25,385 bases of DNA from a virus. Every line of letters starts with the position of its first letter. Position 1 is the first letter of the stretch. A program made the position numbers and the translations under genes. Of this stretch, positions 15,936-21,508 are shown piece after piece. The stretch is taken from positions 1 to 25,385 of the IMG/VR virus record IMGVR_UViG_3300042294_004693; one strand, 5' to 3'. The notes under the pieces were generated by a model. The model saw only the letters and a list, made by a program, of their open reading frames with translations, was not told the DNA's origin and ran no database searches.

Positions 15936-18020
15936 CTAAAATAAATCGTTGATGTCAATTATTTTTAGCGCTTTTTCAGCGCCCTTCTTAAGCAAAATCT
16001 TAGAATCCGCCAAAAGCGTATAGCCACTGGCCATTGCCGCATCATAAGTCTGTGTGCGCTCGATATCAAAGTTTGCCCAGTCTTTAAGGAGTTCTATAAA
16101 ATAGACCTTATGAATGTTATCGTAAATGTATTTCTCGATTAGCTCGCACATAGCCTGCGTTGTTTTCCGCGAGGCGGCAATGCCGTAGTTTTTTTGATTC
16201 CTTAACTTGACCAAATAATTCTGCACGCGGGCATTTTCAAAATATCCGACAAGGCCAATTTTCTGATTCTCGATAAGCCCTAAGCAGCCGTAATGAAATA
16301 GCGTGATAAAGACATCCTCATAAAATGCCTCTACCTCTTGCGTCCTATAAATATACTGCACCACAAACATATCTGTCGTATCCGGCTTTAGCGGATCGTG
16401 CTTGCGTTTGATATAAAAAGCGCCGTCCGATTTTTGTTTACCTTCAACCTTAGAGTGCGAAAACGGGTCAATGCCGCAGCAATATAGATCAGTTGCGCCC
16501 GGTTGATAGTCCGTCCTATATCCGGGGCTTTCGGCGCTCAGGGATTCATGCGGGTGCACATCTGCCTTTACCCTTAACCATCTTCCTTTTTGCGTCGGCA
16601 CCCAGCGCACGTTTTTACCATAGCTTTCCCAGACGTAGTTCCCGCGCTCCGTAAATTCATCCTGCCTCCAGACGATAGCGTCAATTTGATCGGAGATTTT
16701 CGCCACATCAAAAATGCTTTCCCTGCCCAAAAACCGAAACGCCTCTTCAACCGTAAGCGGCTCTTTTCGGATGATACTATTATAGCCCATCACATCGTCG
16801 CTGTACGCTTTTCGCTCTGCAATAATCCTATCGCGGTTTTTCTCCCTATCTACCTGTCCGTACTTATCAAAGTCGCGCGCTTCATCTGCCGAAATAAAAT
16901 ACCGAAAAAGCCCTGTCTTTGTCCGGTGCGTTTCATCGTCGAGCTTTAATTGATCGCAGTCGGAATACATCTTGACGTAATTATCCGTGCTGCCTTCTAT
17001 TTCCTCAACAGTCGAGGTAAGCATCGCTTTTCCGCGAATCTTCCCGTCCACGATAAGGCAGAACTTGACAACGTTCCAGCGTTCGTACACGTCCACACCG
17101 GATCGCGTCTTAAAGACTTCATCGCCAACGTATCGAAGTAGCTTGGTTCCGTCAAATGCCGTCTCTGAACTACTCCTATGCTCTACCCAGCCGCCTAAGA
17201 AATTGCCCGACTTAAAGGTTTCCAGGTCGGTTTGTTTTGGCTTAAACATTAGGGTATTGGAGATATTGGCGAGGCGGCGATCGTCGTGCACGGGCTTAAA
17301 AAAGTCCGGCAGACGGGCAAACATGCGGATTGCGCTATCCTTAAAAACCACCTTATGTGCATCTTCGTCCGTCTTTGATTGAATGCCAAAGTTTGCAAAA
17401 CTTGTCCGGGTAACTGCCTCAAGTCCAAAGGCCACACTCATTTGTGTTTTGCCCATCCGACGTTTTGTAAGCAAGACCGTGCCAAAGCAATTCGGGTTTC
17501 GCATTACATGTTCCAGGAAAAGAAAAAACCGCCTATCGGTTTCCCGAAAAGACGGATAGCCCTTATTCCCATAAGCCGCAATAAAACACCACTCGAGATA
17601 AAAGTAATGAAGCCCGGTAATGTAGGTCGCGCTTCCGCCTTTGCCATTTGCAAACCAGCAGCCGCCCAAACGCCTAAGCCAAGCGCCTTGACGAAAATTC
17701 TCCACGTCCACGTCAAAATAGCCCGGGTCCTGCGCCTGCTTTATGGCCTCATCTGCAATCTTTTCGGCGTACCATTTTGGCAATCCCTGCCGCGTCCAGT
17801 AAAAGTCGTCCTCTTCCGTATTTTTTTTATCAACCCCTATATACACCATTTGCCTTGTCGTCGGGTCAAAGACGTACCCTTCCGGCGGAATGGCTATTTC
17901 AACGCCCTGAATTACCGTACTTGAATAGCCTGTCGGAACAGGACAAGCGACATAAGCCGATTTGCCCTCGCCGACAAGCTGCCAAGCTTTCTTATCACCA
18001 CTCAAATTCTTTTGCGTCAT
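15936..18020 (-). CDS. terL: Terminase large subunit (packaging ATPase and nuclease)
   Basis: 694 residues from the ATG at 18020; a TTG at 18050 would add ten residues deep inside the upstream gene. TerL pumps phage DNA into the prohead through the portal and cuts it. The ATPase domain shows a Walker A-like TKRRMGKT (residues 185-192), with KRRMGK in place of GxGK, and a Walker B LLRYVGDE (294-301) with the acidic pair D300/E301. The nuclease domain has CGIDPFSHSKVEGKQKSDGA with D518, an ENQ at about 584 and a C-terminal TYDAAMAS, giving the acidic residues of an RNase H-fold nuclease. Length is within the usual 450-700. It overlaps the preceding gene by 26 bases and is followed by a promoter rather than the portal, which is separated by 2.3 kb. 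Confidence 0.9.
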   Translation of the reverse strand: MTQKNLSGDKKAWQLVGEGKSAYVACPVPTGYSSTVIQGVEIAIPPEGYVFDPTTRQMVYIGVDKKNTEEDDFYWTRQGLPKWYAEKIADEAIKQAQDPGYFDVDVENFRQGAWLRRLGGCWFANGKGGSATYITGLHYFYLEWCFIAAYGNKGYPSFRETDRRFFLFLEHVMRNPNCFGTVLLTKRRMGKTQMSVAFGLEAVTRTSFANFGIQSKTDEDAHKVVFKDSAIRMFARLPDFFKPVHDDRRLANISNTLMFKPKQTDLETFKSGNFLGGWVEHRSSSETAFDGTKLLRYVGDEVFKTRSGVDVYERWNVVKFCLIVDGKIRGKAMLTSTVEEIEGSTDNYVKMYSDCDQLKLDDETHRTKTGLFRYFISADEARDFDKYGQVDREKNRDRIIAERKAYSDDVMGYNSIIRKEPLTVEEAFRFLGRESIFDVAKISDQIDAIVWRQDEFTERGNYVWESYGKNVRWVPTQKGRWLRVKADVHPHESLSAESPGYRTDYQPGATDLYCCGIDPFSHSKVEGKQKSDGAFYIKRKHDPLKPDTTDMFVVQYIYRTQEVEAFYEDVFITLFHYGCLGLIENQKIGLVGYFENARVQNYLVKLRNQKNYGIAASRKTTQAMCELIEKYIYDNIHKVYFIELLKDWANFDIERTQTYDAAMASGYTLLADSKILLKKGAEKALKIIDINDLF

Positions 18021-18639
18021 AATCTTCTGCTTCCGTAAGCCCTGCGACAAGTTCCGGCGAATACGACATCTTTTGCCCGATAAGTTCCTCTAATTGCTTG
18101 TCGCCACCGTATATCTTAGCATAAAGCCCTTCGAGTTCCTCGCTTGTCGCCTTCATGTATTTTCTAAGCCCGTCCTTGACAGTCATCGCGTCTAAGACTT
18201 TCTTTGCATCCATCTTGTCGCCCTCCTCGACAATGGCAAACATTTTCTCAACGCACTCGTCAAAGAATTTCTCTAAAGCAGAAATCCTTGAAAAATCGCG
18301 GTTGTGTTGCGCCCGGAGCATTTCAGTCGCTATGTCAACATAGACCTCTGCCGACAAGCCAAAAATCTGACTGACAAGATTGTACTCTTCAGCTTGTGTC
18401 AAGTCAAAGCCGGCAAGTTTTGCGGCAACTGCTTTGCGCTCTTTTAAATCCTGCACCCGTCTGGGCACCGGCGAGTTGGCATCGTACATATAGGCAAAGT
18501 ACGCCCCTACCTTCATGCGGTTTCTTTGCGTTATACGCCGCATAGCCATTACCGTATCAAGGCCGGTTGCGGCATAGTCTTTTGCCCGGTACACCTTATA
18601 TCGCATATAGCGAAAATCGCCGTCTTTAAAATATCCCAT
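17995..18639 (-). CDS. Candidate small terminase subunit or terminase-associated protein
   Basis: 214 residues, start ATG at 18639. Entirely soluble and helical: an N-terminal basic region (GDFRYMRYKVYRAKDYAATG, then MAMRRITQRNRMKVGAYFAY) followed by acidic helices (EYNLVSQIFGLSAEVYVDIA, ISALEKFFDECVEKMF) and an acidic tail (EAEDYDAKEFEW). The small terminase is normally encoded just before terL and has a basic N-terminal DNA-binding part and helical oligomerisation core, which this fits in outline. A clear helix-turn-helix is not visible, so the assignment rests on position and composition. It overlaps kinase-MazG upstream by 14 bases and terL downstream by 26. Confidence 0.5.
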   Translation of the reverse strand: MGYFKDGDFRYMRYKVYRAKDYAATGLDTVMAMRRITQRNRMKVGAYFAYMYDANSPVPRRVQDLKERKAVAAKLAGFDLTQAEEYNLVSQIFGLSAEVYVDIATEMLRAQHNRDFSRISALEKFFDECVEKMFAIVEEGDKMDAKKVLDAMTVKDGLRKYMKATSEELEGLYAKIYGGDKQLEELIGQKMSYSPELVAGLTEAEDYDAKEFEW

Positions 18640-19636
18640 CGAGCGTAAATTTTTCGTACGCCGGCCCTTTTTGAATTTTGCCCGTCTCTTTATTCACAAC
18701 GTAATAACGCCCGGATTCAGACTTTCTTACCTCGAGCTTGCCCCTGTTTTCTTCCTTATTGCACTCTGCATTAACTAAGTCCAAGCGCGTTGTCGCCTTT
18801 GACATATTGGCCTGGAACAACACCTTCATGTAAGCAACAATGTGCTCAACGTTCATACTGCAAAGTGCAAGGGCAATCGTTACCCAGAGCAAATCGCAAA
18901 TTTCCTCTGCCTGCCTTTGCGATCCGAATTTTTCGTTCATTACCTCGTTTAACTCCTCCTGAACGAGCTTTAAGTAAATCTTGTGCGCTTCGGCAGGACC
19001 ATTTTCAAAAACATCAAATTCGTTCATCCAATAATCAACCGCCTCGATAGGCGAGGCAAACTCAGGCAGCTCGACTTTTTTCTTTACCTCAAGGCCTGTG
19101 ATCGTCTGTAAAATACCTTCGACCGTAGCCTTAAAGCGCAGAAAACCGTCCTGCGAAAAATCATTGGCCACCGTAAAATCCCCCTTCACCCCGCCTTCGC
19201 TTTCATGGTTTGCCCAGATGCTTTTGGTCATACCGTCCGTTCGCTCCACGCGGATAATCGTTCCCCCGTTTTCCCTTATCCAAGCGGCTTCATTGTCAAA
19301 GCGGACATCAGAGATAATCAAGTTTTGCGTCGGATAGCGGTTTGCCAAGATATTGATCCAGATGTTTTTGTCAAAGTTGTTTCGCAGCGCGTCCGTTCCC
19401 ATGCGCTGTAAAACTTCCCGCACCGGTATTTTAAAAACCGGGCAGATGCTTTCCTTAAATTCCCTGTACGGCAAAAACTTTCTGCCCGTCAAGAGCGAAT
19501 AAGCCTCTTTTAACGCATCCGCAAAAGCAACATGCACAAAGCCAAGCTCAGGATAAGCGTGCTGGGCAATCACCGCAGCAGCGTCTTTACCGCTGCCTAT
19601 CTGCCCTGCAAAACCAATGATAAACCTTTTTTGCAT
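18626..19636 (-). CDS. Fusion of dNMP kinase and MazG-like NTP pyrophosphohydrolase
   Basis: 336 residues from the ATG at 19636; a TTG at 19645 overlapping the upstream stop as TTGA would add three. The N-terminal domain (1-180) is a P-loop kinase of the phage deoxynucleoside-monophosphate kinase type: Walker A GQIGSGKD (11-18), MGTDALRNNFDKNIW (79-93) and LIISDVRFDNEA (106-117). It would phosphorylate dNMPs to dNDPs. The C-terminal domain (about 195-335) has the all-alpha NTP-pyrophosphohydrolase signature EELNE (227-231) and EICD (245-248), followed by NKEENRGKL and a KGPAYEKFTLDGIF tail seen in phage MazG proteins. MazG enzymes hydrolyse non-canonical NTPs and, in some cases, ppGpp. A single chain coupling the two is unusual. 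It lies downstream of thyX in the same strand run. Confidence 0.8.
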   Translation of the reverse strand: MQKRFIIGFAGQIGSGKDAAAVIAQHAYPELGFVHVAFADALKEAYSLLTGRKFLPYREFKESICPVFKIPVREVLQRMGTDALRNNFDKNIWINILANRYPTQNLIISDVRFDNEAAWIRENGGTIIRVERTDGMTKSIWANHESEGGVKGDFTVANDFSQDGFLRFKATVEGILQTITGLEVKKKVELPEFASPIEAVDYWMNEFDVFENGPAEAHKIYLKLVQEELNEVMNEKFGSQRQAEEICDLLWVTIALALCSMNVEHIVAYMKVLFQANMSKATTRLDLVNAECNKEENRGKLEVRKSESGRYYVVNKETGKIQKGPAYEKFTLDGIF

Positions 19637-19641
19637 AAAAT

Positions 19642-19875
19642 TCAATTTTTGTCGTATCTATAAACCTTTGCCGGATATTTGCACATGTGCCCTTTGAAGC
19701 CTTCAGCGTACTCTAAGGGGAAAGTGCGCCTTTTCATATATTCCGAATAAGCGCTAACCGTCTTAGGGTTAGACTTATAAACCGTATAGCGAACATCCAT
19801 TCCGCTTCGCTGCTCGACAACAATATCGCCGACAAGGAGTGTGTCCCCGATATTTAGCTCAGTTAATTTCTTCAT
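19642..19875 (-). CDS. Small hypothetical protein, 77 residues
   Basis: The ATG at 19875 gives MKKLTELNIGDTLLVGDIVV then EQRSGMDVRYTVYKSNP. The frame is open to 20022, but the extra part overlaps the previous gene out of frame and is Lys-runs, so the short start is preferred. NIGDTLLVGDIVVEQ has a VGD-type turn that suggests a small beta-barrel similar to KOW/SH3 folds. The C-terminal half is basic and aromatic (KGHMCKYPAKVYRYDKN). It overlaps the previous gene by 17 bases and abuts the kinase-MazG gene. Function unknown. Confidence 0.6.
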   Translation of the reverse strand: MKKLTELNIGDTLLVGDIVVEQRSGMDVRYTVYKSNPKTVSAYSEYMKRRTFPLEYAEGFKGHMCKYPAKVYRYDKN

Positions 19876-20080
19876 AATAGGTATCCTTATGCCGCCTGAT
19901 TGGCCAGGAGGTAACAATCGCTTCTTTTTCTTTTTCCTGCAAGACAACATGCCGCTCATCTGCCTTCGGCTTAGTTCCGGCTTTTGCAGAGTAGTTGTCG
20001 TTATAAAAACCCAGCACCTCATAATCCCGTTCGCCGAGTTTGATGCGCTTAGGGAGTTTTGCGCTTTTTACGAATAGCAT
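19859..20080 (-). CDS. Small hypothetical protein, 73 residues
   Basis: The ATG at 20080 gives MLFVKSAKLPKRIKLGERDY then EVLGFYNDNYSAKAGT. The sequence is basic in the first half and ends IRRHKDTYYEEIN. No motif or membrane segment is visible. It starts 9 bases after the thyX stop, so the two are probably co-transcribed, and it overlaps the following gene by 17 bases. It may be a modulator of nucleotide or host metabolism by neighbourhood alone. Confidence 0.6.
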   Translation of the reverse strand: MLFVKSAKLPKRIKLGERDYEVLGFYNDNYSAKAGTKPKADERHVVLQEKEKEAIVTSWPIRRHKDTYYEEIN

Positions 20081-20089
20081 ATTTATTTT

Positions 20090-20812
20090 TCACTTTACCC
20101 CAAAAGCCTCCAGTGAAGCCTTAAAGGGATTGCCCGGAATATTCTTTACCTCTTCAACCATTGCCGCAACCATATCGCTGATTTCTTTTTGAGCGCCTTT
20201 GCTTGCTTGTCTTTTAAAATACACCTGCATAAGCCCGTCAAAAGAAAACATCTTGGTAGAGTTGATTTGTGAGTTGTACAGCTTAAAATACCGCGCTGTT
20301 TCCTTCGCCCTTGCTTTTGGCATTCCGACGGCGATCAGGTCTCGCAAACAGAAGTGGTATTTCCTGTTCATTATTTTTGCACTTTCACAGAGTTCATCGT
20401 ACCAATAAAGGCCAATATTCCCGTAGTCCTTCCAATCCTCCGGCAAATAAAACTTATCCTCCTTCAGTTCCTTATACCTTGCACTCTCTGCATTCTCTGC
20501 CTGCATCGCCACCGAATGCTTTAAAAACTGAATATGCGTTGCAATATCATTTGTCGTTGCAAACATAAAAAAAGAAGCGCGGAAGGGCGAAGTGTGCGGA
20601 TCGTGAGACGCATCCATTAACCAAGCGATAAGCTGCTCAGGGGTTTTTACTTTACCGCCTTTGGTTCTTATTGCATCAATTAAGCTATCCACGCGCCCTT
20701 CGATACTTGCCGGAATCTCCGTATCAAGATCAAGGAAAGTTGACGACCAAGCGGCGAGGGCGTGCGTTTTATCGCTTCCGCCGTATTCTAAAAGGGTTAC
20801 TTTGTTTTGCAT
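20090..20812 (-). CDS. thyX: Flavin-dependent thymidylate synthase (ThyX family), divergent
   Basis: 240 residues. ThyX makes dTMP from dUMP using methylenetetrahydrofolate and FAD. Seen: HTSPFRAS (73-80), matching the family HxSPFE-type motif; SARY (110-113), the end of the ThyX signature; and AQKEI (207-211), matching the C-terminal AQxEI. The signature itself is unusual: the usual RHRx7S reads KHS (98-100) with nine residues to S110, so the two Arg flanking His are Lys and Ser and the spacing is two longer. That could reduce or change activity, or represent a divergent clade. Its length fits the family (about 220-260). It would feed dTMP to the kinase domain encoded downstream. The ribosome site AAGGAAAAACA sits immediately upstream of the ATG. 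Confidence 0.8.
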   Translation of the reverse strand: MQNKVTLLEYGGSDKTHALAAWSSTFLDLDTEIPASIEGRVDSLIDAIRTKGGKVKTPEQLIAWLMDASHDPHTSPFRASFFMFATTNDIATHIQFLKHSVAMQAENAESARYKELKEDKFYLPEDWKDYGNIGLYWYDELCESAKIMNRKYHFCLRDLIAVGMPKARAKETARYFKLYNSQINSTKMFSFDGLMQVYFKRQASKGAQKEISDMVAAMVEEVKNIPGNPFKASLEAFGVK

Positions 20813-20884: not shown

Positions 20885-21508
20885 TCAATCCAACAAAGCC
20901 AAAACTTCCCCTGTGTAAACAAAATCGTACTTCACCCCGTCCAATTCAATCCATTCGGCGAGTTTTTCTAAGTACACCACCTTTTGTCCAGGAGCATACT
21001 TTTCCCGCATCCCTTCGGCACAAGATACAACTTCGCCAACGCCGAGGTCTTTTTTCTTATGGAGGCTAAGTAAATACTGACTTTCAAATTCCGCTTTTTC
21101 TAAAGGCTTAATTAAGACTTTCCCGGCAATCGCTTGATAAGGTTGCGCTTCCTTTGTCTTTAGCGCAATTAAATGATGCACCGGGACAATGTAAAAATCG
21201 CCTTCCTCAGTCGAATAAAAAAAGTTTTCCCTGTCCGTTGCCATGTACGAAATTATCACTTCATCGCCCTGCTTTAAAGCGGTCAAACTCTTAGAGATAA
21301 TTTCAGCGTTGAGCATCGTAGAACCCGTATTCGAGGCAATACCAAATTGCTTAGTAAACTTCATAGGCGTTGCCTTAATCGTCCCGCTTACAGGACGCAA
21401 GACGCTTTCCTCTGCACCCTTTGCAATAGGAACGAACAATTTGCCCAACTTTTGTTCTTTTTCAACGCAGATCAAATACTTATTTGCAGGTGTCCTCATC
21501 TTTTCCAT
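20885..21508 (-). CDS. GroES-like co-chaperonin with two tandem Cpn10-type domains
   Basis: 207 residues, ATG at 21508. The C-terminal half (about 128-207) reads like a Cpn10: AGKVLIKPLEKAEFES, a middle loop region LLSLHKKKDLGVGEVVSCAE, then APGQKVVYLE, ELDGVKYDFVYTGEVLALLD, i.e. the family's RVLVKP, GxVxxxG, VxxGDxVxY and ExDGxxYxIV pattern. The N-terminal half (about 6-115) repeats the layout more weakly: NKYLICVEKE, VSGTIKATP, LKQGDEVIISY, DFYIVPVHHLIAL. This suggests duplicated or fused GroES folds. Phage co-chaperonins such as T4 gp31 replace GroES to fold large capsid proteins, so the capsid candidate is a natural client. Standard GroES is about 95 residues. Domain assignment is pattern-based; a single diverged Cpn10 plus another domain is possible. 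Confidence 0.65.
   Translation of the reverse strand: MEKMRTPANKYLICVEKEQKLGKLFVPIAKGAEESVLRPVSGTIKATPMKFTKQFGIASNTGSTMLNAEIISKSLTALKQGDEVIISYMATDRENFFYSTEEGDFYIVPVHHLIALKTKEAQPYQAIAGKVLIKPLEKAEFESQYLLSLHKKKDLGVGEVVSCAEGMREKYAPGQKVVYLEKLAEWIELDGVKYDFVYTGEVLALLD

Follow-up and report, generated by a model that had tools for sequence, protein, structure and literature searches.

The fusion gene and its genomic context

The window considered here, the whole stretch of DNA analysed, is a phage record of 25,385 bases. Its minus strand carries a gene (18626..19636) encoding a 336-residue protein in which a putative dNMP kinase is fused to a candidate all-alpha NTP pyrophosphohydrolase, and which is kept in three related contigs (L001, L093, and L094). 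The start is an ATG at 19636, with an alternative in-frame TTG at 19645, and the translated open reading frame holds no internal stop. The ORF and its translation bear out the coordinates, the motifs, and the one-frame reading proposed in the initial annotation, and the joining of a dNMP kinase and a MazG/PRA-PH-type domain in a single frame is confirmed as genuine.

Downstream, the stop of the fusion gene is overlapped by a gene for a 214-residue protein with no assigned function (17995..18639, minus strand), 86–87% identical in L093 and L094, and this is followed by the gene for the terminase large subunit (15936..18050, minus strand; phrog_6681, 6.8e-78). The order fusion, 214-residue protein, terminase large subunit is shared by all four contigs, and the protein in the middle is possibly the equivalent of a small terminase. 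The terminase is 29% identical to that of the Flavobacterium elemoviruses, phages in which the pyrophosphohydrolase gene is separate, and suggests a distant kinship that would place the phage near them.

On the upstream side lies a gene without family match (19642..20022, minus strand), whose product resembles in its C-terminal part that of an 81-residue gene upstream of the fusion in L093 and L094. Just upstream, too, is the gene for a ThyX-type thymidylate synthase (20090..20812, minus strand; PF02511, 5.9e-13), the proposed pathway partner of the fusion. Three of the four lineage records encode ThyX, and the remaining one is a fragment of 18 kb. The gene is unbroken in the window, whereas in record G001 (L001:3450-4226) an in-frame TGA splits it into open frames of 78 and 176 residues; in G002, the 50-kb relative, an intact ThyX is encoded elsewhere in the genome and does not adjoin the fusion. 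The same region of the window encodes a 207-residue protein (20885-21508) with a GroES/Cpn10-like C-terminal domain (PF00166, 1.8e-4) and counterparts in L093 and L094.

Domain structure of the fusion protein

The N-terminal half (residues 1–178, end approximate; 19103..19636, minus strand) is a putative phage dNMP kinase with intact motifs, as the initial annotation had proposed. It matches PF21448 with an E value of 3.8e-13 (50 bits, curated cut-off 27.1) and phrog_139 with 2.5e-42 in profile searches, and its translation contains the P-loop GQIGSGKD (residues 11–18; 19583..19606, minus strand). Fourteen positions of this half (G8, G16, K17, R73, Q77, G80, T81, R85, W93, D110, R112, E116, H144, and S146) are invariant in 34 sequences. 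The kinase half is modelled confidently in the full-length structure prediction, and its top match in the PDB is the dNMP kinase of phage T4 (1dek), both by sequence (1.9e-6) and by Foldseek fold comparison (7.7e-8). The likeness to the T4 gp1-type kinases thus extends from the P-loop kinase fold to the conserved residues of the family. However, the T4 enzyme is a stand-alone protein of 241 residues, whereas the kinase of the fusion comprises about 178 residues followed by a second enzyme domain.

A linker of 15 residues (179–193; 19058..19102, minus strand) leads to the C-terminal half (residues ~194–336; 18629..19057, minus strand), for which motif and profile tests support the MazG-type assignment made beforehand, pointing to an all-alpha NTP pyrophosphohydrolase of the MazG/HisE/dimeric dUTPase superfamily. 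This half matches phrog_671, annotated as "nucleotide pyrophosphohydrolase", with 2.6e-9 (1.2e-14 for the copy of L093), while its matches to PF01503 (PRA-PH) and PF03819 (MazG) are weak and stay under the Pfam cut-offs. Both metal-binding motifs are intact: EELNE (residues 227–231; 18944..18958, minus strand), with E227, E228, and E231 invariant in 11 sequences, and EICD (residues 245–248; 18893..18904, minus strand), with E245 and D248 invariant in the same number. Further along, NMSK (residues 277–280; 18797..18808, minus strand) matches the ANLSKA stretch of the dUTPase DR2231 in a profile alignment.

The AlphaFold model of this domain on its own (mean pLDDT 78.5, pTM 0.47) consists of helices and a C-terminal beta hairpin, predicted by DSSP on the models at residues 301–315 (18692..18736, minus strand), and the signature EExxE...ExxD is borne by two predicted helices at domain residues 29–49 and 56–76. 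Fold comparison of the model retrieves DR2231, iMazG, HisE, DCTPP1, and MazZ with Z scores of 5–6, amid unrelated helical proteins and with all matches at Z <8; Foldseek gave no match for it at E<=0.001. Since the pLDDT of the C-terminal half is near 50 in the full-length model, that model is uninformative about how the two domains are placed relative to each other.

Conservation and selection

The same intact fusion is present in three other metagenomic contigs from IMG/VR, namely L001 (37 kb, record G001), L093 (50 kb), and L094 (18 kb), with full-length identities of 97%, 59%, and 57%, respectively. As these copies are uninterrupted, a frame error separating the domains is ruled out, and the fusion is neither a sequencing artefact nor a product of chance. 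Both halves are under purifying selection, with dN/dS values (Nei–Gojobori, close pairs) of 0.063–0.064 for the kinase and 0.049–0.135 for the pyrophosphohydrolase, which also rules out the chance joining of a kinase to a meaningless tail. Identity between groups amounts to 66–67% in the kinase half, 46–48% in the pyrophosphohydrolase half, and 20–27% in the linker (window against L093/L094). Together with the dN/dS values, this pattern indicates that both halves are maintained by selection, while the linker is free to vary.

Distribution of the fusion

The fusion is real, rare, conserved, and apparently undescribed, and each of its halves belongs to a standard phage enzyme family. At a criterion of 80% of the protein covered, a full-length match was found in 0 of 50,697 phage records and 0 of 72,556 plasmids, and a scan of bacterial genomes yielded no fusion. 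The second domain is likewise absent from 80 of 80 other dNMP kinase loci of IMG/VR, both in frame and within the few kb of flanking sequence available, and the stand-alone relatives of the pyrophosphohydrolase domain that were recovered are single-domain genes. In phage record G005 the dNMP kinase and MazG are separate genes, and so they are in Erythrobacter phage vB_EliS-L02, as ORFs 44 and 46 (PMC9127768). The two activities are thus usually found on separate proteins, as had been supposed from the outset. No account of a fusion between a dNMP kinase and a pyrophosphohydrolase was found in the openly licensed literature. Within its own lineage, it is present in all four contigs recovered, which span 57–97% identity. 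When the terminase or the 214-residue neighbour serves as the query, L001, L093, and L094 are the only contigs recovered; all four known members of the lineage therefore carry the fusion, and no unfused relative or intermediate is known.

Several apparent counterparts were rejected. Gp94 of Erwinia phage phiEa21-4, a dNMP kinase of 328 residues with a full-length Foldseek alignment, has a C-terminal part that is not MazG. In Klebsiella T5-like phages, matches that extend to residue 250 merely run on into the next annotated gene, and the "nucleotide kinase" that overlaps MazG in cyanophage P60 is a DUF3310 protein rather than a dNMP kinase. Apart from this, phiEa21-4 encodes in gp100 (L149:23643-24389) a MazG-like pyrophosphohydrolase with a glutaredoxin-like domain (PF00462, 6.4e-5). 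The overlapping DUF3310 and MazG-like genes of Synechococcus phage P60 (L150:1733-2291) lie beside a ribonucleotide reductase, and a DUF3310 gene likewise precedes the MazG-like gene of Roseobacter phage CRP-603.

Comparison with known systems

The closest parallels to the C-terminal half are the phage MazG-like proteins of PHROG 671 (from Roseobacter phages CRP-603 and CRP-2, the 103-kb record G004, and cyanopodovirus P60), which hold EExxE/ExxD motifs like those of the fusion and, for the most part, share its C-terminal signatures NxSK and KGPxY. In these relatives, however, the pyrophosphohydrolase is encoded by a separate gene of about 118–161 residues. MazZ of phage S-2L (PDB 7ody) is a member of the same superfamily and exhibits extra C-terminal beta strands, as does the model of the fusion (PMC8342488). 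Its gene, however, lies within a datZ-mazZ-purZ cluster and its activity is specific for (d)GTP (PMC8342488), while purZ was not found in the four fusion records, which may be incomplete. N-terminal fusions have been reported for MazZ-1 proteins (PMC8342488), although a dNMP kinase is not named among the partner domains in the available portion of that source.

DR2231, the MazG-like dUTPase of Deinococcus radiodurans, is a stand-alone bacterial protein, unlike the fusion, and the similarity between them is too weak to transfer specificity from one to the other. A precedent for the type of fusion is provided by DmtZ-DutZ of Arthrobacter phage Wayne, where a dNTP pyrophosphohydrolase domain is fused to an enzyme that uses dNMPs (PMC12884076). 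The folds are nevertheless different, since DmtZ-DutZ combines Dut-like and nucleoside deoxyribosyltransferase-like domains, and it comes from a Z-genome phage.

Proposed role in nucleotide metabolism

Tentatively, and with somewhat less than even confidence, the fusion is interpreted as a bifunctional enzyme of nucleotide metabolism in a Bacteroidota-type, podophage-like lineage, whose two activities flank ThyX and whose most likely substrate is dUTP. The C-terminal domain, with metal bound at EExxE/ExxD, would convert a dNTP into dNMP and PPi, most likely dUTP into dUMP; the separate phage ThyX would turn dUMP into dTMP; and the N-terminal kinase would phosphorylate dTMP, and probably other dNMPs too, to the dNDP. 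The fusion would thereby link the steps before and after ThyX while clearing dUTP from the pool, and its probable purpose would be to feed thymine production. The two activities are opposed on the phosphate ladder, and action on the same base would amount to a futile cycle; a stable fusion therefore implies that the halves differ in base preference or that an enzyme acts between them, a position that ThyX, with dUMP as its substrate, would fill. Such differing preferences would avert a pointless cycle between dNTP and dNMP. In favour of this role speak the two recognised domains with their intact motifs, the occurrence of the fusion in all four contigs, the selection acting on each half, the ThyX genes of three records, and the precedent of DmtZ-DutZ; in G002, moreover, no nucleotide-metabolism genes other than ThyX and the fusion have a Pfam match.

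The choice of dUTP fits the likeness to DR2231, weak as it is, and the finding that none of the four records, which may be incomplete, has a match to a trimeric dUTPase. The profile match of the C-terminal half to DR2231 is weak (E 0.01), with ELADLL and ANLSKA stretches common to both, and among the members of the superfamily DR2231 gives the longest structural alignments (103–116 residues, Z ~5.5–5.8). DR2231 is credited with exclusive dUTP activity in a title cited in the reference list of PMC10014863. Against the proposed role count the Pfam matches below cut-off and the weak structural matches, and the sequence does not reveal the substrate; caution is called for mainly because cyanophage MazG prefers dGTP and dCTP (PMC6850273) and MazZ is guanine-specific (PMC8342488). 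Against a coupling to ThyX count the distant ThyX gene of G002 and the in-frame TGA of that of G001. Catalysis by the fusion, its preference for dUTP, and the coupling of the pathway are all inferred. The channelling of dNMPs proposed in the initial annotation is plausible insofar as it means a role in dNMP flow, whereas channelling as such belongs to what is inferred, and it is rather unlikely that a two-headed enzyme is physically associated with ThyX and hands dUMP and dTMP on.

An unlikely reading, though one with a real chance of being correct, is a general recycling of dNTPs with no special link to ThyX, where the C-terminal half would degrade host-biased dGTP and dCTP and a broad kinase would recharge the dNMPs needed, rebalancing the pool toward the composition of the phage. 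The preference of the S-PM2 cyanophage MazG for dGTP and dCTP (PMC6850273) and the co-occurrence of separate dNMP kinase and MazG genes in G005 and vB_EliS-L02 (PMC9127768) are consistent with it; however, two sites that shared their bases would set up a futile cycle, and the weak sequence and structure likeness favours DR2231 over the guanine-specific MazZ. It is more doubtful still that only the kinase is catalytically important and that the C-terminal half serves as a dimerisation or dNTP-sensing regulatory module. Such a module would agree with the faster divergence of this half between groups, but not with its five invariant metal-binding acidic residues or with its dN/dS of 0.05–0.135.

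Unusual DNA bases, suggested at first, are improbable: in this view, MazG would supply a dNMP whose base is then altered, and the kinase would charge the altered dNMP. The dNMP kinase of T4 charges hydroxymethyl-dCMP, which counts in favour of this proposal. So does MazZ, which feeds PurZ in Z-genome phages (PMC8342488). However, the four phages (G000–G003; records that may be incomplete) have no match to PurZ (PF00709, a profile detected in 14 of 14 in the control) or to the thymidylate-synthase/hydroxymethylase family, and a Pfam scan of 40 ORFs of G002 returns ThyX and the fusion as the only matches from nucleotide metabolism, with no other family for the biosynthesis of modified bases; the proposal is therefore unsupported. 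Equally unsupported, and hardly credible, is the removal of ppGpp to blunt the host stringent response, also raised initially. Such a role was historically proposed for MazG, in cyanophages as well as in E. coli (see PMC6850273), but purified cyanophage and host MazG neither bind nor hydrolyse (p)ppGpp (PMC6850273), and the fused dNMP kinase would contribute nothing to it.

The opposed directions of its two activities make the fusion well suited to studying how the dUTP/dTTP branch is managed in phages; its pair of domains forms a "Rosetta stone" link between genes that are separate in some phages. Its impact is limited, as both halves belong to well-known families and the fusion is seemingly confined to one small lineage.

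As a further observation on this region, L001 holds two tandem genes for N6/N4 DNA methylases with near-identical N-termini (L001:4233-5554) between ThyX and the fusion, a pair that the window, L093, and L094 lack at this position. These methylases act on finished DNA and not on dNMPs.
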